Assembly: GCA_007116155.1 (NCBI GenBank)
Contig: SKJC01000011.1
Location: 1 to 37,237, forward strand
DNA length: 37,237 bases
Direction of reading: 5' to 3'
From: Candidatus Babeliaceae bacterium
Lineage (GTDB): Bacteria; Babelota; Babeliae; Babelales; Babelaceae
In this document: piece by piece, positions 9,444-32,179 of the stretch
Numbering within the stretch: position 1 is the first letter of the stretch
Layout: every line of letters starts with the position of its first letter
Translations under genes and position numbers: made by a program
The notes under the pieces: model-generated
Seen by the model: only the letters and a program-made list of their open reading frames with translations
Told to the model about the DNA's origin: nothing
The model's database searches: none

Positions 9444-10793
9444 CTACAAAGAATGCCAGCAACCACTACTTGAAAACCATCCTTGATATGCATAAGAACT
9501 ATAAAGAAGCGGCACTCCTGAGGCAATTACCTGCAATCGCGCAACCTCCCATAACGCTTGCTGAAAAAAGCTCCCCTCAAACCAACTATCATTAATTAAT
9601 GCAACAACAACATCATCAGCGCATAACATAGAAGTCATATTCGATAACCGATTGGTAAAGAAAAGCTCGGAACAAACAATTGGAACCACAGCACCAGCAA
9701 TCTGAGTACAGCAAAAACGAGTAAAAGCACCATTGCCAGCACAAAAAGCTATTAGGGTGTACCCCAACAAAGAACTTAACAAAACAATCCAATTCGGAAA
9801 ACGTTCAGCTAGAACAACACGATGCGATTTTTCATACAGACCAATACACTTTTCACATGAAAAACCAAATGCGGCATTTGCTACAAAATCCTCTTTTTCA
9901 AGCGCATAAGAGCCAAAAATCAAAGTGTCATTATCAGAACAGGCTTGAGAAAATCCTGCTTGCATATAAGGCGTATTACACGCAAACGGGAAAAAACTTT
10001 CAGGAAATACGATAATGCGAGGTGCGCGACCTAACCCATCTCTCCCAAGAAGATCGCATATCTTCTCAAGCGCTTCAAAACTCGAAATGTCAGGTTCAAG
10101 AGGATGTGTGACTCGAGGAACGTAAAAACAAGAAAAATGTTTCAATTGAACATCCCGGTGAAAGCAATTTATTATGAGTATTGAGGCAATATTTATTAGA
10201 AACACCAAGAGTGCCGCACGATTTCTTCTAAGCAGAAAAGAACAACCACTAAAAACCACCAATAAAAAGATACCAAACGCCCAGGAATAACCAAGATACA
10301 ACGTACATGTAGCCAAACCCGGCAACTGTACGAGCACCCTCATTGGATGTACAAAAAGTAGACCTTCCAGGGAGCCGAATATCCATAACGAATAATGCCC
10401 AAGAACATAAAACCAAACAATAAAAAACATATAGCCAGCAAGACAGGGATACCGATAATATAGGCCAGAAAAAAGCCAAAAGATGAGCGTTTGCTGCAGA
10501 GAAAGATAAAAAGCAAGTGCAATACTCAGAACAACACCAACCCACGGAGCAAAGCAGGAAAAAAAAAGAGGCCAAAGAGCAAGTAACCCAACAATAAGAT
10601 AGGTCAAAAAGGCCCAGAGGAAAACATGCTTGAATAAAACAACTCCCCGACAAAACAGCCAGGCACAAGATATAAACCAAAAAAGCATCCAATAAGGAGC
10701 CGAGTAAACTAAGCTAGCACATCCTAAAGCTACTGCTCCCAAAAAAACAAAATTTTTAAGAAATCTTCCGCTCACGAGAGTTCTCATTTTCAC
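9444..10793 (-). CDS. lnt: Apolipoprotein N-acyltransferase (divergent, short C-terminus)
   Basis: Inner-membrane enzyme that adds the third acyl chain to lipoproteins in diderm bacteria. About six N-terminal TM segments (about 12-210) precede a nitrilase-like CN-hydrolase domain. The catalytic triad fits Glu265 (VFPESFFPF), Lys322 (YEKSHRVVL) and Cys374 (PIVCSELFF). The segment NDSWFEGSFFQQ matches the usual NDAWFG region. It ends at residue 449 soon after the YSSYAYQGW block, whereas typical Lnt is about 500 residues with a final TM anchor, so the C-terminus looks clipped. The GTG at 10793 has a GGA about 8 bases upstream; an ATG at 10787 is an alternative. It is the upstream gene of the rplI-dnaB-ruvC run. 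Confidence 0.8.
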   Translation of the reverse strand: MKMRTLVSGRFLKNFVFLGAVALGCASLVYSAPYWMLFWFISCAWLFCRGVVLFKHVFLWAFLTYLIVGLLALWPLFFSCFAPWVGVVLSIALAFYLSLQQTLIFWLFSGLYYRYPCLAGYMFFIVWFYVLGHYSLWIFGSLEGLLFVHPMRVLVQLPGLATCTLYLGYSWAFGIFLLVVFSGCSFLLRRNRAALLVFLINIASILIINCFHRDVQLKHFSCFYVPRVTHPLEPDISSFEALEKICDLLGRDGLGRAPRIIVFPESFFPFACNTPYMQAGFSQACSDNDTLIFGSYALEKEDFVANAAFGFSCEKCIGLYEKSHRVVLAERFPNWIVLLSSLLGYTLIAFCAGNGAFTRFCCTQIAGAVVPIVCSELFFTNRLSNMTSMLCADDVVVALINDSWFEGSFFQQALWEVARLQVIASGVPLLYSSYAYQGWFSSSGCWHSL

Positions 10794-16230: not shown

Positions 16231-16345
16231 ATAAAACTCCTTGGGACATCAAAGAACCCTTATCTTCGATTACACTATACTTCGTAGATCTTTACAAACA
16301 TACTATACAGAAAGAATTATCTGTTACACAGGAAATAGTATTAGT

Positions 16346-17704
16346 ATGAATACTGTATCACGAACAAAAGACATCTCCAAAAAAATAGGCATCTGGGGCT
16401 TAGGCGTCTCAGGGAAAAAGTTACTGGGTTTTTTTCACGAACAGAACTATCAAATAGCTATCCTCGAACATCCCGAAAAAATTGCAGCGCTCTCACCGCT
16501 TCTCAGTCAATATCCTTGTACAAAATACTTTGATCCACGTGAGCGGGCGCTCTTTTTTGCAGAATCTGATTATATCATTCCAAGTCCTGGCATTGAAATA
16601 CCACCGGAAATACCACACAAAGAAAAACTCTGGGCAGAGCTAGACTGCTTTACCACCTTTAACACAAAAAAAATTATTGGCATTACCGGAACCCTGGGCA
16701 AAACATCTACAACCACCCTCCTGACTAATCTCCTCAATCAGACCAGTCAAACAGCAGTCACCGGAGGCAATATTGGGAACGGTATTATCGACGTACTTTT
16801 ACAAAAAGGCGATATTGCTGTTTTAGAGCTCTCAAGCTTTCAGCTTGAACTAGCTAAATCATGTGCCCCGGACATTGCAATCATTACCAATTTTTTTGCC
16901 AATCATCTTGATCGACATAAAACCTTAAACGCCTACCAAGAAGCAAAACTCAACGTAATTCGACAACAACGGCCCAATCAACATGCAGTTATTAATTGTG
17001 CCTTTGCTGAAAGCTGCGCCTATCGTCTACCAACAAATGCACAAGTTACGGTCTTTGGAAAACCAACAAAAAAAGAACCACCCACCAATTACACACATGT
17101 ATTTCAACAAGCAGATGGATCTATTGTAAAAAAACAAAAATCAAAAACAACCATACTCCTGCCCGTAAAGGCAATCCCAAATATCTCCTTCCCTGAAAAT
17201 TGGCTCATTATCGCAGCTACGCTCGATATTCTCGGCTGCCTACATATTCTTACACACAAAACAACAACATATGTGCTACCCGAACACCGGATGGAATTTG
17301 TCCGGCTACATAATCGCATTCGCTATATAAACGACTCAAAATCAACACTTATGGAAGCAACAAGAGCAGCAATTTGCCAATTACACATGCCAGAGAAAAC
17401 AATTCTTCTGTTTGGCGGATTAAGCAAAGGCGTAGACCGAACCAAAATACTTGATTGGATAGCGCCCTGTAAGCATATCGTCTGTTTTGGTCACGAAGCT
17501 GCAATGCTTTCCCAAGCTTGCGCTGAACAAAACATCTCAGCAACCGCATACAAGGACCTTGAAGCAGCTCTAATGCATGCACGAGCCCTTGCTGAACCAG
17601 GTGATACAATTCTCCTTTCCCCGGGCGGATCAAGTTACGACCTATTTCACAGCTATGAAGAGCGAGGAACTTTTTTTAAACAATTAGTAAAAACGTTATC
17701 ATAG
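16346..17704 (+). CDS. murD: UDP-N-acetylmuramoyl-L-alanine:D-glutamate ligase
   Basis: Cytoplasmic Mur ligase that adds D-Glu to the peptidoglycan precursor. The ATG at 16346, with AGGAAA about 10 bases upstream, gives 452 residues; a TTG-started extension from 16241 has no homology. Visible are the N-terminal Rossmann motif IWGLGVSG (16-23), the ATP loop TGTLGKTST (114-122), the central SSFQLE and NHLDRH blocks, EHRMEF, the carbamylated-lysine-region motif NDSKST, and LLSPGGSSYDLF near the C-terminus. The ATP loop has Leu where most MurD proteins have Asn, a mild change. It is followed by ftsW, a remnant of the dcw cluster. Confidence 0.93.
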   Translation: MNTVSRTKDISKKIGIWGLGVSGKKLLGFFHEQNYQIAILEHPEKIAALSPLLSQYPCTKYFDPRERALFFAESDYIIPSPGIEIPPEIPHKEKLWAELDCFTTFNTKKIIGITGTLGKTSTTTLLTNLLNQTSQTAVTGGNIGNGIIDVLLQKGDIAVLELSSFQLELAKSCAPDIAIITNFFANHLDRHKTLNAYQEAKLNVIRQQRPNQHAVINCAFAESCAYRLPTNAQVTVFGKPTKKEPPTNYTHVFQQADGSIVKKQKSKTTILLPVKAIPNISFPENWLIIAATLDILGCLHILTHKTTTYVLPEHRMEFVRLHNRIRYINDSKSTLMEATRAAICQLHMPEKTILLFGGLSKGVDRTKILDWIAPCKHIVCFGHEAAMLSQACAEQNISATAYKDLEAALMHARALAEPGDTILLSPGGSSYDLFHSYEERGTFFKQLVKTLS

Positions 17705-20096: not shown

Positions 20097-21626
20097 TTAT
20101 AGCTGTTTCCAACTCATCAACAACTCAACAAATAAACGCACACCAAAACCTGTTGCCCCAGTCGAACGAATATATGTCTTATCCGGAACCTTAAAAGAAA
20201 CCCCGGCAATATCAATATGAGCCCATACAAGAGCATCCGGTACAAATTGCGACAAAAACTTACCTGCCGTTACGGCACCAGCACGATACCCCTCTTTCCC
20301 AATATTGCAAACATCTGCAACATCCGAGGTAACAGCTTTGTCATATTCGCCAGAAAATGGCAAAGCCCAAACTTTATCCCCCGAAACAGCACCCGCATGC
20401 TCAAGTCGTACACGTAATGTTGTATTTTCAGTCATTAATCCGGCATAAAATGAACCCAGCGCGTAAGCACATGCACCAGTCAAGGTAGCAATATCAATAA
20501 GTGCATCAAGCTGATATTCTTTGCATATATACCCCAGAGCATCAGCCAAAATTAAGCGCCCTTCTGCATCGGTATTTTTAATTTCCGACGTTTTCCCATT
20601 ATAATGATAAATAATATCACCAGGCTTTGTTGCTGAACCACTCGGCATATTTTCCGTTAACGGAACTGCAGCAACAACACGCACATGCGGCTTCAAATGA
20701 GCTATCGCCTGCATTGTTGCAAGAACAGATGCCGCGCCCGCCATGTCATCTTTCATCTCATCCATGCTCTGAGAAGGCTTAATACTAATACCGCCCGAAT
20801 CAAAGGTAACGCCCTTACCAACTAACCCAATAGTTTGATGCGCTGACTCTTCTGGAAGATATTCAACTACAACAAAGCGCGGTTCTTGCACAGATCCTTG
20901 ACTTACAGCGAGCAAACCGCCCATACCCAACTCTTGAATTTTCTGCTTATCAAAAATCTGACAGTGAAGATTCGGATGAGCTTGCGCTATATCACTAAAA
21001 GATTCCGCCATTGCCGAAGGAGTAAGCGCACAAGGAGGCATGTCACACCATCGACGCGCCTGATTAACAGCAAAACCTTCCCAGACACCTCGCTCCCAAC
21101 CAAACTTAATAGCTTCATGATCCGCTTCTTTGGCAACAAGAAGAAAATCATATTCTTGATCTAGGTGGCGCTTAGAATCGGTTATATATTCATTAAATTG
21201 ATAAGCTGACATCATTGAGATTGATGCAACTTCTTGTGCTAATTCAAACGCATCAATACCAAACATCTCAGGAAAGGGAAGATCTAAAACCACCACCCCC
21301 GGCACTACTTTTTCAAGATATCGAATTACAGAGCCTATCGCTTGCCGCAACGATTCTAATAAACTCACACTCGATGTATCTAAATTGCCTAATCCAACAA
21401 CAAGAACAGTGCACAAGACCCCATCCCTTATCCCGTATAATGGCAACAAAGAAGCACAATCAGCAGAAAATTTATTTTTTTTGGTCCATACATCATACGA
21501 AATTCCAACCTGCTCCATCCATTGACGCTGTTCTTGAGTTATACTAGACGCTGAATCAACAAAAAAAACATACGTATCACCCTGAATATTTATTAATGGA
21601 TGTTTTGCTACACGCATCTGTATCAT
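20097..21626 (-). CDS. pepA: Leucyl aminopeptidase, M17 family
   Basis: Cytosolic di-zinc exopeptidase that trims N-terminal residues; in some bacteria it also binds DNA. The signature NTDAEGRLILADAL is present, as are the metal/catalytic segment VGKGVTFDSGGISIKPS and MKDDMAGAA. The ATG at 21626 (509 residues) has AGAGGA about 8 bases upstream, so the longer frame to 21671 is not needed. For an organism that takes up host peptides this would be a scavenging enzyme, which is inference. Confidence 0.94.
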   Translation of the reverse strand: MIQMRVAKHPLINIQGDTYVFFVDSASSITQEQRQWMEQVGISYDVWTKKNKFSADCASLLPLYGIRDGVLCTVLVVGLGNLDTSSVSLLESLRQAIGSVIRYLEKVVPGVVVLDLPFPEMFGIDAFELAQEVASISMMSAYQFNEYITDSKRHLDQEYDFLLVAKEADHEAIKFGWERGVWEGFAVNQARRWCDMPPCALTPSAMAESFSDIAQAHPNLHCQIFDKQKIQELGMGGLLAVSQGSVQEPRFVVVEYLPEESAHQTIGLVGKGVTFDSGGISIKPSQSMDEMKDDMAGAASVLATMQAIAHLKPHVRVVAAVPLTENMPSGSATKPGDIIYHYNGKTSEIKNTDAEGRLILADALGYICKEYQLDALIDIATLTGACAYALGSFYAGLMTENTTLRVRLEHAGAVSGDKVWALPFSGEYDKAVTSDVADVCNIGKEGYRAGAVTAGKFLSQFVPDALVWAHIDIAGVSFKVPDKTYIRSTGATGFGVRLFVELLMSWKQL

Positions 21627-21719
21627 ATACTCTTCCTCTTGATAGTTGTACGCAATACATAATTCCCTCAATACCCCCTAGTATACCGAGCTTTTTCAAA
21701 ATAACAGCGCCAAAAACCC

Positions 21720-21784: not shown

Positions 21785-22318
21785 ATGAAACACAAAGTAC
21801 AGAGCTCGATAGTCCTGAGCTTAACGGCAACGCTCTTTTTAAACATACAAGCTGCAAATATCCAAATAATTGACAACCGGACAGCACAAAGAATCAATCA
21901 ATATTTTGGTATGCATGCTGAAGCTTTCAAAAAAAACCACAACACCGTTTCTCGCTGCATTAGACGATACGAACACACAAATCAAGAGAATACACTTAAT
22001 TTGCGACGCCCAAAAATTACAGAAAGCCTTATGGAAAAGAAACACCATTATGTAACACTCATGACCTTCGGAATTACGTACATCTCAACGAACAATAGCA
22101 CGCTTGCCGCTGAACTCCCCCATTTAAAAAATTTATTTTCTTCCCTAAGTAACCAATATGAGCTCTTTCAAAGGCTAAGCAACACGACTGATACTATCAC
22201 CAGTAAAAAAGCCAAACGAACACTCATACAACAAACAACTCGAGCAAAACAAATCTTGCAAGCGGTTGCGCCAACATTAAAAGTAAAAAGCATTAAAAGA
22301 ACTATCGTGCTTACATAA
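21785..22318 (+). CDS. Small secreted protein of unknown function
   Basis: 177 residues. An N-terminal signal peptide (MKHKVQSSIVLSLTATLFLN, likely cut after about 23 at IQAA) predicts export. The mature part is mostly helical and basic, with several KK/RR pairs and no recognised domain. Expression is likely high given its near-consensus promoter, although the ribosome-binding site before the ATG is only GGAAA. It converges with the thioredoxin-like gene with only 14 bases between them. Confidence 0.7.
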   Translation: MKHKVQSSIVLSLTATLFLNIQAANIQIIDNRTAQRINQYFGMHAEAFKKNHNTVSRCIRRYEHTNQENTLNLRRPKITESLMEKKHHYVTLMTFGITYISTNNSTLAAELPHLKNLFSSLSNQYELFQRLSNTTDTITSKKAKRTLIQQTTRAKQILQAVAPTLKVKSIKRTIVLT

Positions 22319-22332
22319 TCACATAAAACATC

Positions 22333-22995
22333 TTACCAGCAACAACCCCTGCCCCAATAGCCACCCCAGCGACCCCAACCCCAACTCGCTGGAGAAACAC
22401 AACCAGAGCGCCAAGGGTACGCACAACCATATCCAAGCCCAACACCAAAACTAACTAAGGGCGCAGAAGCACGACGACGTAATTCACGTTCTTTTTTCTT
22501 TTTTGCAATCCGCTCTTCATTAACATACTCTGCAAAATCAGATATATTTGCTCGCTCTAAAAAACGCCGCATATCAGCAGGGGAAAAGCTTGCCGCATCA
22601 ATAATTTGCGTAACCAGCGGAACGCCGTCTTTAAAAAAAAGAATAGCATCCTGAGTTAACCCCAGCTCTTGTCTTAACTCACTCAGATCTCCGCGATCAA
22701 AATTAATCGCAATAAATGCAACCGAGTCACTATATTTTGACCTATTACTGAATGAATCAAGTATTTCAACAACATTTTCCACAGCATGCCATCGCTGCGA
22801 ATATGTTTTCTCACCATCTTCATCAGCAAAACCGGCTCGGTCCCGCGCAGAAAGACTATATGCAAATGCAACAATTAACGAATGCTCTTTTTTTATACGC
22901 TGAAACTTTTTTTGTACATGTACCATCGACACATCTGCAAAAAAGGAACCAAAAACTAAGGCGCCTAACAAACCTATATATCTTACGATTCTCAT
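22333..22995 (-). CDS. Exported thioredoxin-fold-like protein without CxxC
   Basis: 220 residues with a short signal peptide (1-20). Residues about 35-150 follow a thioredoxin-like pattern: a first strand LIVAFAYS, a helix, a strand SVAFIAINFD followed by LSELRQELGLTQD, then AILFFKDGVPL as in the usual pre-cis-Pro and following strands. No CxxC follows the first strand; the region reads SLSARDRAG instead. A basic KKKK/RRR stretch (163-175) leads to a Gly/Trp/Cys-rich tail (PWRSGCVSPASWGWGRWGGY) ending GCCW. It is the last gene of the exported operon; its ATG overlaps the hydrolase stop as ATGA. Redox activity, if any, would have to come from tail cysteines. Fold assignment is moderate. Confidence 0.65.
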   Translation of the reverse strand: MRIVRYIGLLGALVFGSFFADVSMVHVQKKFQRIKKEHSLIVAFAYSLSARDRAGFADEDGEKTYSQRWHAVENVVEILDSFSNRSKYSDSVAFIAINFDRGDLSELRQELGLTQDAILFFKDGVPLVTQIIDAASFSPADMRRFLERANISDFAEYVNEERIAKKKKERELRRRASAPLVSFGVGLGYGCAYPWRSGCVSPASWGWGRWGGYWGRGCCW

Positions 22996-24002
22996 GATAA
23001 ATCTCCCCAGCTATCACCATCAACCATAATTTTTTCTAATGGGCGACGACCTAAATTATCTGTTACATATTGTTCTGATAAAAACTTGGCAATAAATCGT
23101 TGTACTCGATACGCATAGGCATCAGGCTCATAAAAAAATGAATCAAAATGATGTCTGCCATTAGTAATCCAAAACCGCTTAAAGCCGCTTACTGCATCAT
23201 AAATACGCCGAACTGCCACCGGAGGAGCTTTTTCATCACGTTTACAAGTAATAAAAAAAACGGGAATAAATACATGTTGAGCCGCAGCAACATTATCCAG
23301 AGGAACTACCCGCGTTGGTATCTGTGCAGCATCAATATGCGCAATTATTTTTAGAACCATTTTTAATAATTCTTGAACATACTCGTTATAGGCAAACTTT
23401 TTTAAAAATGAACGCCCAGGAACCGCAAATTTTTGGCCTAATATTGAAAACTCTAAATTGTTAATACTACGAGCTAATAAATCTTCTGATGACTCAAATG
23501 GACAATCCCAAACAGCACAATCAAATAAATTTCCATATGTTGCTTGAGCATTTAAACAGGATACTGCCCCCATAGAAAAAGCATACGAAATAAGAGGCAA
23601 CTTAGATAATTCCCGATCAGAGCGAATAAAGTCCACAGCAGCTTTTACATCATAGACTTCATCACGCCCAAAGGTACAACACTGATCATCCACATCCTTC
23701 CCATGAGCACGAAAATCAAAGAGCATAACGTGATACTGATCAAACATGCGACGTAAAAATTTCACATCTGATGCACTGCACATAAAACCATGACAAATTA
23801 ATACGGTCGCCTTCGCGCCTGGTTTACGATAGAGTATTCCTTTACGAATAATTCGCTTACGACGACCAATACCCCCATCACTCTCAAGACAAACGCGCTC
23901 AGGATAGACACCCGCATATTTAAAATATTTTTGTTGCGCACCCCGCACATCACTCTCGCCCAGCAAAAAAATTAATAGACAAAACAATCCTACATATTTC
24001 AT
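22992..24002 (-). CDS. Exported alpha/beta hydrolase
   Basis: 336 residues with a signal peptide (about 1-21) and an alpha/beta-hydrolase fold. The segment VLICHGFMCSASDV (68-81) supplies the HG oxyanion motif. The nucleophile is Ser143 in AFSMG (a GxSxG variant with Ala first), the acid is probably Asp256 (CKRDEKAP), and the base is His284 or His285 (GRHHFDSF). The arrangement resembles BAAT/dienelactone-hydrolase-like or BEM46-type serine hydrolases that act on esters or peptides; the substrate is unknown. ATGA overlaps with both neighbours show tight translational coupling with the muramidase before it and the thioredoxin-like protein after it. Confidence 0.85.
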   Translation of the reverse strand: MKYVGLFCLLIFLLGESDVRGAQQKYFKYAGVYPERVCLESDGGIGRRKRIIRKGILYRKPGAKATVLICHGFMCSASDVKFLRRMFDQYHVMLFDFRAHGKDVDDQCCTFGRDEVYDVKAAVDFIRSDRELSKLPLISYAFSMGAVSCLNAQATYGNLFDCAVWDCPFESSEDLLARSINNLEFSILGQKFAVPGRSFLKKFAYNEYVQELLKMVLKIIAHIDAAQIPTRVVPLDNVAAAQHVFIPVFFITCKRDEKAPPVAVRRIYDAVSGFKRFWITNGRHHFDSFFYEPDAYAYRVQRFIAKFLSEQYVTDNLGRRPLEKIMVDGDSWGDLS

Positions 24003-24556
24003 GCAACACCCCCTCTAGCATAAAACACAGATCGATCATTAAAAAATTTCTGCAACTCAGCCATAGTTGTATTTGTCTGCCCGTACGGCGCTCCTGGAAA
24101 AGGCGCCCAGGTTTTATTTGTTTTATTAATTGCCTGAGCAAAACGCCCTTGGACAATATCCTCCACGGCATCATTTTCATACAAAAGAGCAATAGCACCT
24201 AAATCTTGATTAAAAGGCTTAAAATCGGCAAACCCATACTGCTTTTCCAAACCATTCCACGTAGACTGAAGAAACATATAGCGTCCCGCAGCCGAGCTAC
24301 GCTTTAACTCACCAGATTTTCTTTTAAACTCAATAACCCCTGGATGCTTATCATACCCACGAAACCATTGATATGGGTACCGCAAAGAATACCCCAATAT
24401 ACCCGCATCAAAAGTTCCCTCTGCATATGCAATTACATCTAAAAAGGCCTTAACTCGATTGTTTTTCCGTGCCTCTACTAACGACTCAAATCGAACCCCA
24501 AAACAGACGCCAACCAAACAGAGCAATCCGAAAAAACCTTTAACAAAATACTTCAT
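23999..24556 (-). CDS. Exported muramidase of the phage lambda R (GH104) type
   Basis: 185 residues from the ATG at 24556. A signal peptide (MKYFVKGFFGLLCLVGVCFG) replaces the cytoplasmic start of the phage enzyme. The fold matches lambda endolysin: AFLDVIAYAEGT with probable catalytic Glu46, GYDKHP, SAAGRYMFLQSTW (88-100), DFKPFNQDLGA and WAPFPGAPYGQ. It should cleave the glycan backbone of peptidoglycan by lytic transglycosylation, probably in the periplasm or outside the cell. It heads the operon. The ribosome-binding site is only a G-run (GGTGGGGG). Catalytic machinery appears intact. It could serve self-wall remodelling or attack on other bacteria in the same host. Confidence 0.88.
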   Translation of the reverse strand: MKYFVKGFFGLLCLVGVCFGVRFESLVEARKNNRVKAFLDVIAYAEGTFDAGILGYSLRYPYQWFRGYDKHPGVIEFKRKSGELKRSSAAGRYMFLQSTWNGLEKQYGFADFKPFNQDLGAIALLYENDAVEDIVQGRFAQAINKTNKTWAPFPGAPYGQTNTTMAELQKFFNDRSVFYARGGVA

Positions 24557-24596
24557 ACGAGCCCCCACCACTTATTTTTCTTATTTTTTCATTTAC

Positions 24597-26245: not shown

Positions 26246-27184
26246 ATGAGACCTGAAAACGTTGTTATTATTGGATCTGGCCCTGCCGGATTAACTGCTG
26301 CTCTATATTGCGCCCGAATGGGACTTTCGCCCCTAATAATTGAAGGCCCTCTCCCCGGCGGACAGCTTATGACTACCTTTTTAGTAGAAAACTGGCCGGG
26401 AGAGAAAAGCATTCTTGGGCCATCTCTAATGAACAATCTCCGGGAACACGCTACTCATCTTGGTACACGATTTATCAGCGAAACGGTTACCAATATAGAA
26501 ACATCAAAACAACCGTTTACCATTATTACCAAAAACAACACACGCATTCACGCACAAAGCATTATTATAGCAACAGGCTCTACACCCCGGCGAATCGGAT
26601 GTCCGGGCGAGGATCTTTATTGGGGAATCGGCGTTTCTTCTTGCGCTGTTTGCGATGGAGCTTTTTATAAGGATAAAACCGTAGCGGTCATTGGTGGCGG
26701 CAACACTGCTCTCGGACATATTCTCTTTTTATCACGATTTGCCAGACAGCTCTTTTTAATACATCACGGGACCCAGCTTACCGCAACTGAACAACACCTT
26801 ATTGAAAGCCTCAAGAATATTGCTCATCTTTCTATTTTTTACCAAACAAAAGTTAAAGAAATCATTGGCGACACAAAAAAAATCACAGAACTACAACTCA
26901 ACAGTCAAAACCCCGAAATACCATCGAAAATTTCAGCAGATGGCGTCTTTGTTGCAATCGGCAGTCAAGCTACGACATCCTTCCTACCCCCAGAAATAAG
27001 ACTTTCAGAAAAAAAACAGATTGTCATATCCCATACCACACAGACCTCTGTTGATGGGATATTTGCTGCTGGCGATGTAACTATTCATGCCTATCGACAA
27101 GCCATTACGGCAGCATCTGCAGGATGTCAAGCCGCACTGGATGTACAAAATTATTTGAAAAAAAACAACATTCCCGTACACTAA
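26246..27184 (+). CDS. trxB: Thioredoxin reductase-like flavoprotein
   Basis: FAD enzyme that passes electrons to thioredoxin, 312 residues. The FAD motif GSGPAGL (10-16), redox centre CAVC (133-136) with CDGAF, NAD(P) motif GGGNTA (150-155) and final FAD motif GIFAAGDV are intact. The NADPH 2'-phosphate motif, HRRxxxR in classic TrxB, reads HHGTQLTA (173-180): both adjacent Arg and the later Arg are missing. NADH, reduced flavodoxin or ferredoxin may therefore be the donor. It starts 4 bases after the trigger factor stop. Confidence 0.92.
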   Translation: MRPENVVIIGSGPAGLTAALYCARMGLSPLIIEGPLPGGQLMTTFLVENWPGEKSILGPSLMNNLREHATHLGTRFISETVTNIETSKQPFTIITKNNTRIHAQSIIIATGSTPRRIGCPGEDLYWGIGVSSCAVCDGAFYKDKTVAVIGGGNTALGHILFLSRFARQLFLIHHGTQLTATEQHLIESLKNIAHLSIFYQTKVKEIIGDTKKITELQLNSQNPEIPSKISADGVFVAIGSQATTSFLPPEIRLSEKKQIVISHTTQTSVDGIFAAGDVTIHAYRQAITAASAGCQAALDVQNYLKKNNIPVH

Positions 27185-29939: not shown

Positions 29940-29980
29940 CATGGCCCAGCATATTATGCTGGGCCATGACTTTCTTATTT
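29940..29980 (+). terminator. Rho-independent terminator
   Basis: CATGGCCCAGCATA (29940-29953) pairs with its complement (29955-29968) around a single T; TTTCTTATTT follows within a few bases. It ends the Lys-rich secreted protein gene. Confidence 0.75.
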
Positions 29981-30902
29981 ATTTACCAAACGTCTCTAAT
30001 GCTTTTACCGCCAACTTACGATCGTTATAAAACGCAATCGCAACATCAACTATGTACTCAAATTGTGGGCGAACCGGTTTAAGACGCTCTTCTAATTCTT
30101 TGGATTTTTGTGCATCAAGCCCATTTGAATTAGAACTGAGATCTACTTGAATAATCGCAACTAATGATCGATCTTGATTTTGTGCTTGCACATTGTTTTT
30201 TGGTAAAACAACGAAGAGCACTTTTATGTCCTCAACCAACGTTTCGCGTTCATCAAAGAGTAGAATAAGATCCTGCGGGTTTTCACCAGATGGCTCATAG
30301 CCTACGGCATACTTCAAGCCACGAAACCAGACTGAATTAGCAGCCTCAGTTATCGCATTTAATTTTTTAGTAGATTCTTCAAGTGACAAATTACGAGTGC
30401 TTATTTGAGTCGAAAGATTAGGTAACGCGTTTGCTAGCTTTTTTTGCACTTCTAAATAGTTACACTTCTCCGACCAATAACACAGCTCTTTCAATAGCTC
30501 CTCTGCAAAAGCATATTGCGCTTTTGTTTTCTCTGCATTTGCATATCCAAGACCTAGGGCAATCCCGGTAACCGAACGTGATGTAATCCAATCAATATTC
30601 TTAATCAGCTTAACGCCGCCATATAATCCCAGTATGGACCCTATAGAAAATACATACGGTTTTTTTTCTGCAAACCGCAACACGGTGTTTGTGCCATCGT
30701 AGAGATAATCTGTAAAACCTTTTGCACCAGGAACCGGAGCACCTGTATCTTTATTCCACCACCAAACTGCTCCAACGCTTCCAAGACCAAGGAGCAACAT
30801 TTTTTCAGGAGTCTTCAGTATTCGTGCCTTTGCAATAGTACCTATTGGATTCAGAATTAAAACTAGACCTAAAGCCAATATCACTTCTTTTTTTATATTC
30901 AT
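29979..30902 (-). CDS. Membrane-anchored/exported protein, FYNDRKL-tail family (copy 2)
   Basis: 307 residues from the ATG at 30902, which overlaps the upstream stop as ATGA and has GGGGG 6 bases before it. There is a signal-like start (MNIKKEVILALGLVLILNPI), a second hydrophobic patch (MLLLGLGSVGAVWWW) and a Gly-rich one (SIGSILGLYGGVKLI). A soluble helical C-terminal part contains LILLFDERETLVEDIKVL and ends YIVDVAIAFYNDRKLAVKAL. The last segment and the ILLFD block recur in the upstream gene, so the two are paralogues. No known family. Confidence 0.7.
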   Translation of the reverse strand: MNIKKEVILALGLVLILNPIGTIAKARILKTPEKMLLLGLGSVGAVWWWNKDTGAPVPGAKGFTDYLYDGTNTVLRFAEKKPYVFSIGSILGLYGGVKLIKNIDWITSRSVTGIALGLGYANAEKTKAQYAFAEELLKELCYWSEKCNYLEVQKKLANALPNLSTQISTRNLSLEESTKKLNAITEAANSVWFRGLKYAVGYEPSGENPQDLILLFDERETLVEDIKVLFVVLPKNNVQAQNQDRSLVAIIQVDLSSNSNGLDAQKSKELEERLKPVRPQFEYIVDVAIAFYNDRKLAVKALETFGK

Positions 30903-32029
30903 GCTAACCCCCATGCATTCATACGGAGTTTTCGATCGTTATAAAAATTTACAGCAACATCAACAACATAGGTTAAATGTTTTTTTAATTCAGGATCCAA
31001 GTCTACCTTCTGAAAATTTTGATTAGAAGCCGGGATCTTATTAATTTCAGCATTTAATTTTTGTATAGAACTAATTAACTTATTAGACGGATCAAAAAGC
31101 AAAATTTGCTGCTCAGGCAAACAATAATACAGATCTATCCATAAAGTACGCTGGGGACGAAGCCACAAATACGATAGGCCTATAGGTGCTGTGCCCCCAA
31201 TATTGTTTAAGCATTCAATCGCTTTTGCACCATTAAGCATAGCACCAACATTTTGTATTTTTTCTTTAAGATCATCACAATTTGTATATTGAGAAAGCAT
31301 TTTACTTAACTCTCCAAGTAATTTTTTAGCATAATTATATGATTCACGAACTTTTGTTTCTTCAGAAGAATGGATCAAACTAGAAATATACCACCGCGGT
31401 TTTGTTGAAGCCTGCTCTGCAATATATTTTGCTGTAATTGGCCCTCGAACTGCAGCAACATACAATCCTTGATACCCTACATACGCCGCTAACGCTACCC
31501 CGAAAATTGTCTTGCGCGGATGTATTTTTGCAATCTCATAAAAACTAGAAAGGTCCCCACAAGCTCGCTTTATCAATCCTTTACCAGAGACAATACCAGC
31601 TGATAGCCATGAATTATTTTGCGATTGAAACAAGTGATTTGGCTCTTTTTGAGGTAAATCTGAAACCACCGATACACGAGGTACTTCAGGGAAAGACACA
31701 GGATCCGACGTAGTTGATGAAATCTGATCTATTTTGTGTTGATTAGACGGGAATAAGGATTCTTTTTTTTGAAGTCTTTTTTTGTTCACATAGCCAGCAA
31801 AAGTATTTACTTGCGCCCAAGACCATAGCGCTGATTTTTTAGCAAAGGAACCAACAGGTTTTGCTACCTTCTTACTACCAGTAACAGTAGATGCCAGTAT
31901 CGTTTTTATTATTTCGAAGGATGCACGCAACGATTCTGCACCGATAACGGCACTAGCTGATTGTGCTGCAAAAACAGACAAAAATAATAACAACAATATC
32001 TGTATTTTTTTATGATTTACTATATTCAT
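30899..32029 (-). CDS. Exported protein, FYNDRKL-tail family (copy 1)
   Basis: 376 residues from the ATG at 32029, which has a strong GGAGGT upstream; the frame to 32137 runs into the tRNA and is not used. It has a signal peptide (MNIVNHKKIQILLLLFLSVF, cut after about ASA) and a low-complexity linker (80-135). A hydrophobic segment (TIFGVALAAYVGYQGLYVAA) is followed by a helical domain with YAKKLLGELSKML, QQILLFDPSNKLISSIQKL and the tail YVVDVAVNFYNDRKLRMNAW. The last two blocks match the downstream gene. A GGGTG/CGCCC hairpin lies just upstream of its ribosome-binding site. tRNA-Phe lies 75 bases upstream on the same strand. Confidence 0.72.
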   Translation of the reverse strand: MNIVNHKKIQILLLLFLSVFAAQSASAVIGAESLRASFEIIKTILASTVTGSKKVAKPVGSFAKKSALWSWAQVNTFAGYVNKKRLQKKESLFPSNQHKIDQISSTTSDPVSFPEVPRVSVVSDLPQKEPNHLFQSQNNSWLSAGIVSGKGLIKRACGDLSSFYEIAKIHPRKTIFGVALAAYVGYQGLYVAAVRGPITAKYIAEQASTKPRWYISSLIHSSEETKVRESYNYAKKLLGELSKMLSQYTNCDDLKEKIQNVGAMLNGAKAIECLNNIGGTAPIGLSYLWLRPQRTLWIDLYYCLPEQQILLFDPSNKLISSIQKLNAEINKIPASNQNFQKVDLDPELKKHLTYVVDVAVNFYNDRKLRMNAWGLA

Positions 32030-32104
32030 ACCAAAGCACCTCCAAGGGCGAAAACACCCTAACTCTGTCTTATCTAGCACACGAAGAAAACAAACAAAAA
32101 AAGA

Positions 32105-32179
32105 TGGTGCCGAGAGATGGAATCGAACCACCGACACGAAGCTCTTCAGGCTTCTGCTCTACCACTGAGCTACCTCGGC
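32105..32179 (-). tRNA. tRNA-Phe (anticodon GAA)
   Basis: 75 nt on the minus strand with CCA encoded. Acceptor GCCGAGG pairs with TCTCGGC with one G-U pair. The D-arm is GCTCAGTGGTAGAGC, the anticodon stem-loop GAAGCCTGAAGAGCTTC carries GAA, and the T-arm has GGTTCGATTCC. It sits back to back with pheS, the alpha subunit of its own synthetase, 130 bases away. Confidence 0.96.

Follow-up and report, generated by a model that had tools for sequence, protein, structure and literature searches.

The operon and its three products

The window analysed here is the whole of contig C12, 37,237 nucleotides in length, of the Candidatus Babeliaceae bacterium genome G000 (754,937 bases), which falls within the phylum Babelota (Dependentiae, TM6). 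On its minus strand we find a GH104 lysozyme of the phage lambda R family (gene 1, 23999..24556, 185 aa), an alpha/beta serine hydrolase (gene 2, 22992..24002, 336 aa) and a protein with a predicted thioredoxin fold that is devoid of a CxxC motif (gene 3, 22333..22995, 220 aa). Gene 1 begins with ATG; position 24571, 15 bases further upstream, has a GTG in the same frame. A preliminary description of this DNA, made from the letters alone, had reported that the three genes are joined by two ATGA overlaps; this is confirmed, as the plus-strand letters read TCAT at 23999–24002 (gene 1/gene 2) and at 22992–22995 (gene 2/gene 3). The same description would have been refuted by a neighbourhood not conserved in any relative, and we found that gene order and strand do recur. 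Because of this recurrence, and because 7 of the 11 lysozyme–hydrolase junctions share the 4-base overlap (the remaining gaps are 2, 3, 10 and 117 bases), the arrangement appears to be more than chance. For the hydrolase/gene 3 junctions the overlap of 4 bases is found in 14 of the 48 listed. A promoter scan found 6 sites where shuffled sequence led us to expect 8.8, and a terminator scan found 2 where 3.6 were expected.

Downstream of the operon lies a leucyl aminopeptidase gene of family M17 on the same strand (20097..21671, profile match), which is often the next gene in the phylum, and further on murD for peptidoglycan synthesis on the plus strand (16241..17704, profile match 16382–17692), an opposite-strand neighbour in many relatives. 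Between gene 3 and the aminopeptidase gene a plus-strand open reading frame of 177 aa with a hydrophobic start (21785–22318) has weak family matches only and is unrelated (E 0.77) to the 185-aa reading frame at the equivalent spot in genome G015 (L053). As neighbours of gene 1, where a phage lysis cassette would have holin and spanin genes, the scan of the longer reading frames and of tRNAs gave the hydrolase, gene 3, a tRNA-Leu and trigger factor.

Gene 1 matches PHROG 90 (endolysin) with an E-value of 1.8e-34 and the phage lambda lysozyme structures 3d3d and 1am7 with 3e-19; Pfam and NCBIfam gave no significant match. In the alignment with lambda lysozyme Glu46 stands opposite the lambda glutamate, Glu19, which we take to be the catalytic residue, and it is invariant in all 13 Babelota lysozyme copies, so that the catalytic position proposed earlier for Glu46 holds. 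The relationship to lambda R was also seen correctly, but the term muramidase had been used loosely, since the accessible part of PMC7511926 counts GH104 as a family of lytic transglycosylases. By its family gene 1 is thus a lytic transglycosylase and not a hydrolytic muramidase. The family is matched by 553 phage records, the phage relatives standing at 42 to 43% identity among the matches listed (Escherichia phage V5 and its like). Single-sequence scans of the genome-contig and viral-contig collections gave no relative, and an alignment was required to find them; with it, at least 585 viral-contig candidates, among the 600 listed, were seen to encode one. Gene 1 shares with lambda endolysin R the sequence family and the position of the catalytic glutamate. 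In contrast to lambda R, it has an export-type hydrophobic N-terminal segment, is chromosomal and heads an enzyme operon, and among the GH104 proteins of Babelota one is naturally fused to a domain of thioredoxin fold. Five of the 13 lysozymes (L120, L121, L123, L124 and L131) have two paired cysteines immediately ahead of the AAGRY-type motif, and the other eight do not. The window lysozyme has two cysteines, both confined to the export segment, and redox control of this protein by a disulfide was rejected for this reason.

Gene 2 scores 36 bits against Pfam Hydrolase_4 (PF12146, cut-off 27), and Ser143, Asp256 and His285 are kept in 36 of 36 aligned relatives, with Asp256 assigned by position. 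This bears out the serine hydrolase with an intact Ser-Asp-His set that had been proposed. The predicted model has a mean pLDDT of 90, and the folds nearest to it include the Pyrococcus furiosus esterase Pf2001, the thioesterase DcsB and monoglyceride lipases. With the Hydrolase_4 or monoglyceride lipase-like hydrolases and Pf2001 gene 2 has in common the fold and the Ser-Asp-His set; it differs by its export-type N-terminus and by belonging to a Babelota family that a score gap separates from the other hydrolases of the phylum. Against the quorum-quenching lactonase UilS (NF047920) it reaches 32.8 bits, far below the cut-off of 400. Cysteines are frequent among the 36 relatives, at position 253 in 35, at 167 in 30, and at 70, 75 and 109 in 26 each.

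Gene 3 alone gave no significant match in the PDB, Pfam, NCBIfam or PHROGs. When five of its relatives were scanned with PF00085, one passed (24.9 versus 23.5 bits, E 2.1e-5), one lay at the cut-off and the remaining three had no thioredoxin match. The AlphaFold2 model (pLDDT 84) predicts a thioredoxin fold from about residue 20 to 150, a long helix from 151 to 177 and a low-confidence tail, residues 184–220 being mostly below 50. Compared with thioredoxins this model reaches Z-scores of 13.8 to 14.7 over 102 to 116 residues among the 50 matches listed. There is no CxxC in residues 21–110, and within this range only 2 of the 52 members of the gene 3 profile have one, of which one (L098, 132 aa) does not adjoin a hydrolase. 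The designation as thioredoxin-like therefore stands for the predicted fold, as seen in the model and in the one relative passing PF00085, but not for a redox function of the usual motif; the long helix and above all the aromatic tail, the distinctive part of the protein, are extra relative to thioredoxin.

The tail is rich in glycine, tyrosine and tryptophan. These residues make up more than 35% of the last 45 positions in 40 of the 52 gene 3 members compared to 1 of 215 other reading frames longer than 300 aa. A count over the hydrolase-centred regions gave 56 reading frames of 70–270 aa with a tail of more than 30% Gly+Tyr+Trp, of which 48 follow the hydrolase immediately and 8 lie in its vicinity. 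At four loci without gene 3 proper (L062, L064, L065 and L107) the hydrolase is followed by a short protein which, judged by eye, has a hydrophobic start and such a tail, and L093 and L101 have, likewise by eye, borderline short tail proteins. Of the parts of gene 3 it may therefore be the tail that persists best. Tandem duplicates of gene 3 occur after the hydrolase at L110 (5367–6676) and L074 (2701–3990).

The preliminary description had also assigned signal peptides to all three products. Export was judged here by N-terminal hydropathy alone, a loose test which is passed by all 13 lysozymes, by 60 of the 65 hydrolases and by 49 of the 52 products of gene 3, and also by 122 of the 215 other reading frames above 300 aa from the same regions. 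Of 33 leucyl aminopeptidases, which served as the control for a cytosolic protein, one passes, and in all 13 lysozymes the hydrophobic segment is preceded by a net positive charge. This segment may be a cleaved signal or, as in SAR endolysins, a weakly hydrophobic signal-anchor that stays uncleaved. Hydropathy supports export-type N-termini for the three proteins at this level.

Distribution of the hydrolase and gene 3 in the phylum

The hydrolase is present in 64 of the 101 analysed genomes of the phylum with E-values of 6.6e-59 or better, the next scores being 6.8e-22 and weaker. All 64 loci, including the window, were read. In 49 of them gene 3 is the gene immediately after the hydrolase, and in 41 the leucyl aminopeptidase lies downstream on the same strand. 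As a control we inspected 28 loci of lower-scoring hydrolases (L171–L198, taken from the best 80 of 218 relatives; by title 18 belong to other phyla, 6 to Dependentiae, Babeliales or TM6 and 4 to a 'bacterium'), and none of these has a gene 3 profile match or a tail protein downstream. On this comparison of gene neighbourhoods, the best-supported view is that the natural unit is the pair of hydrolase and gene 3, occurring phylum-wide, which the lysozyme would have joined in one family. We found no description of such a gene composition in the literature searched, including the accessible parts of PMC4378268, PMC6561590, PMC12172432 and PMC7511926. At L096 (5263–8101, genome G074) two tandem hydrolase paralogues have gene 3 between them.

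Upstream of 51 of 65 hydrolases a thioredoxin reductase gene is found on the same strand, within 500 bases in 28 and within 3 kb in 47 cases. Reductases longer than 370 aa are, according to a Pfam scan of two, mostly fusions of thioredoxin reductase and thioredoxin, for example at L202 (2883–4394, contig C1 of the window genome) and L068 (3705–5228). Forty-five of the 49 reductases of this size have a CxxC in the last 120 residues, 46 have an N-terminal hydrophobic segment and 13 a lipobox-like motif. This suggests that the fusion could be an exported NADPH-dependent enzyme, although it would be puzzling where its NADPH comes from. Of the 53 thioredoxin reductase genes, 37 have a divergent gene for an AAA protein at a distance of no more than 500 bases. 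Among four large AAA proteins (L202 4544–6844, L068 642–3200, L079 757–3201 and L062 131–2713) two match the M41 peptidase.

In the window genome the block is split, because the fusion of 503 aa, together with the divergent AAA protein of 766 aa that adjoins it and has no M41 match, is located on contig C1 and not on C12. The thioredoxin reductase encoded in the window itself (26246–27184) is only 312 aa long and has neither an anchor nor a thioredoxin domain; it was set aside as a member of the module.

The lysozyme as a possible later recruit

The distribution of the lysozyme is much narrower. A single-sequence search detected it in 12 of the 101 genomes, namely in 11 of the 16 genomes of the family to which the window belongs, spread over seven genera, and in genome G043. 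A profile search over 87 genomes, a sample to which G008 does not belong, gave no further genome. In all 11 family genomes that carry it the lysozyme gene adjoins the hydrolase gene upstream and on the same strand, and the proteins are 31 to 52% identical to the window protein. Copies outside the operon are found in G008, which has a second one beside the guanylate kinase gene, and in G043, where the only copy lies beside the genes of EF-P, NusB and NDK. With such neighbours the lysozyme does not look like a prophage gene.

Presence of the lysozyme goes along with presence of gene 3. Eight of the 11 family loci with lysozyme have a whole gene 3, two have a short protein with signal and tail, and in one (G009) the gene 3 domain and, behind it, the lysozyme share a reading frame of 311 aa that directly precedes the hydrolase, downstream of which there is no further gene 3. 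At the four family hydrolase loci without lysozyme (G004, G010, G011 and G012) gene 3 is missing in all four. Fisher's test, from which G003 was left out as it has no orthologous hydrolase, gives p = 7e-4, a value to be read with the reservation that the rows are not independent and that the four lysozyme-free loci come from two genera; G010 and G011 are moreover only 70 and 67% complete. Weaker matches to the gene 3 profile are found in all 16 family genomes, also in the four without gene 3 at the locus, and many of these are ordinary thioredoxins or reductase fusions.

In a tree of the lysozyme with its viral relatives, in which 57 of 80 loci are given, the Babelota rows need one change, with a branch support of 2. 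A single acquisition is therefore allowed by the tree and not shown by it. Taken together, the gene distribution makes the lysozyme look like a later recruit to an older gene pair.

Possible roles at the cell envelope

If the lysozyme is exported, the own wall of the cell is the target that we favour for the set. The gene murD is found in 84 of the 87 sampled genomes, and in all 11 sampled lysozyme carriers, the window genome included, it scores above the cut-off; within this sample no match was obtained in G004, G034 and G079. The absences fit the accessible text of PMC4378268 and PMC6561590, according to which Babela massiliensis is without the murein pathway and JCVI TM6SC1 and Chromulinavorax possess it. 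Where hydrolase and murD are on one contig, they lie at most 25 kb apart in 32 of 34 genomes, and in 30 they are encoded on opposite strands; a further 17 genomes, out of 51 in all, have the two on different contigs. This linkage gives moderate support for a role at the own envelope, and it may also be plain conserved gene order. The genomes of the family that lack the lysozyme are informative in two respects. G010, G011 and G012, which belong to one genus, are without lysozyme; G010 and G011 are outside the murD sample, and G012 has murD, so that the lysozyme appears dispensable even when a wall is present. G004 has neither murD nor lysozyme and keeps the hydrolase, and gene 2 is therefore not by necessity a wall enzyme.

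We lean, with due caution, towards the reading that a phage-type endolysin was domesticated, exported and added to an envelope module of Babelota, where it most likely cuts the own wall locally. This reading builds on membership and order of the genes, on the catalytic residues, on the occurrence of the lysozyme in a single family and just one outlier genome, and on the single fusion of gene 3 with the lysozyme, all of which are read from sequence, and on the folds of genes 2 and 3, which are predicted. In mechanistic terms, the lysozyme would go to the periplasm and cut the peptidoglycan of the cell at chosen places when the cell divides, enlarges its envelope or releases vesicles. Gene 3 might be an adaptor without redox function that uses its tail to keep the enzymes at a surface. 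This would probably be the outer membrane on its inner side, and there the hydrolase would cleave an ester, a thioester or a lipid. Such a recruitment would show how a cell can make an exported function of its own out of a lysis enzyme. Hardly any Babelota have been cultured, and little is known about the biology of their envelope. A gene block that much of the phylum has kept, consisting mostly of proteins with export-type N-termini and without known partners, offers a good handle on it. Both the fusion in G009 and the versions of gene 3 reduced to the tail make the function of partner and tail directly testable.

A different target is conceivable, although we regard it as rather unlikely: lysozyme and hydrolase might be released, directly or by outer-membrane vesicles, and break down lipids of the protist host, or other bacteria ingested along with the cell, within the protist. 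This would nourish an organism whose own metabolism is small. The life style would agree with this, as Babelota are described as strictly intracellular in protist hosts (accessible part of PMC12172432) and Chromulinavorax is reported to have secreted hydrolases and apparently to release vesicles in the food vacuole (PMC6561590, in the sections available), and lipases and esterases are among the near folds of gene 2. A precedent would be the lysozyme of Bdellovibrio which, in the available text of PMC7511926, aids exit from the prey. The Bdellovibrio lysozyme DslA, presumed to sit at the outer membrane of this predator, is like gene 1 a lysozyme-fold enzyme employed by a bacterium, but it cuts the wall of the prey, while gene 1 comes from an intracellular bacterium of protists (same source, accessible part); the two are likened here by enzyme type and use. 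No secretion route beyond the Sec-type N-terminus was seen, the murD linkage points to the cell's own envelope, and the lysozyme is limited to one family and one outlier despite the shared life style.

Even less probable in our opinion is that loosening of the own wall by the lysozyme serves the release of outer-membrane vesicles in particular, with genes 2 and 3 as cargo or as vesicle-forming factors. The vesicles reported for Chromulinavorax (accessible part of PMC6561590) would suit this proposal, as would the link that the title of PMC7918800 draws between the DLP12 prophage lysis module of Escherichia coli and vesicle production. However, no direct link was found in any Babelota genome, and in the phylum the module without lysozyme is the rule.

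One may further speculate, at long odds, that the full locus is an envelope relay of redox control and lysis. The exported reductase–thioredoxin fusion would then maintain or switch cysteine-bearing envelope enzymes, that is, the hydrolase with its conserved cysteines and those lysozymes that have the cysteine pair, and gene 3, being without CxxC, would dock these enzymes at the outer membrane by its aromatic tail. For this the fusion would require a supply of NADPH outside the cytoplasm, for which the host might be the source; if true, the opening of the wall would be regulated by redox and depend on the condition of the host.

That the lysozyme gene is a phage remnant, or a phage gene that is still mobile, and by chance lies before a housekeeping operon is the least probable explanation and can hardly be upheld: the family is indeed largely known from phages, as the counts given above illustrate, but the gene has the identical place in all the family genomes that carry it in spite of their sequence divergence, every copy retains Glu46, and in G009 it is fused with gene 3.

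Two further observations concern other parts of the window. The reading frames 29979–30914 and 30899–32137 have no Pfam match and are adjacent distant paralogues (34% identity over 93 residues, E 2e-8). The reading frame 9444–10793 encodes a hydrophobic protein with a weak match to CN_hydrolase, possibly an apolipoprotein N-acyltransferase, as named by eye.
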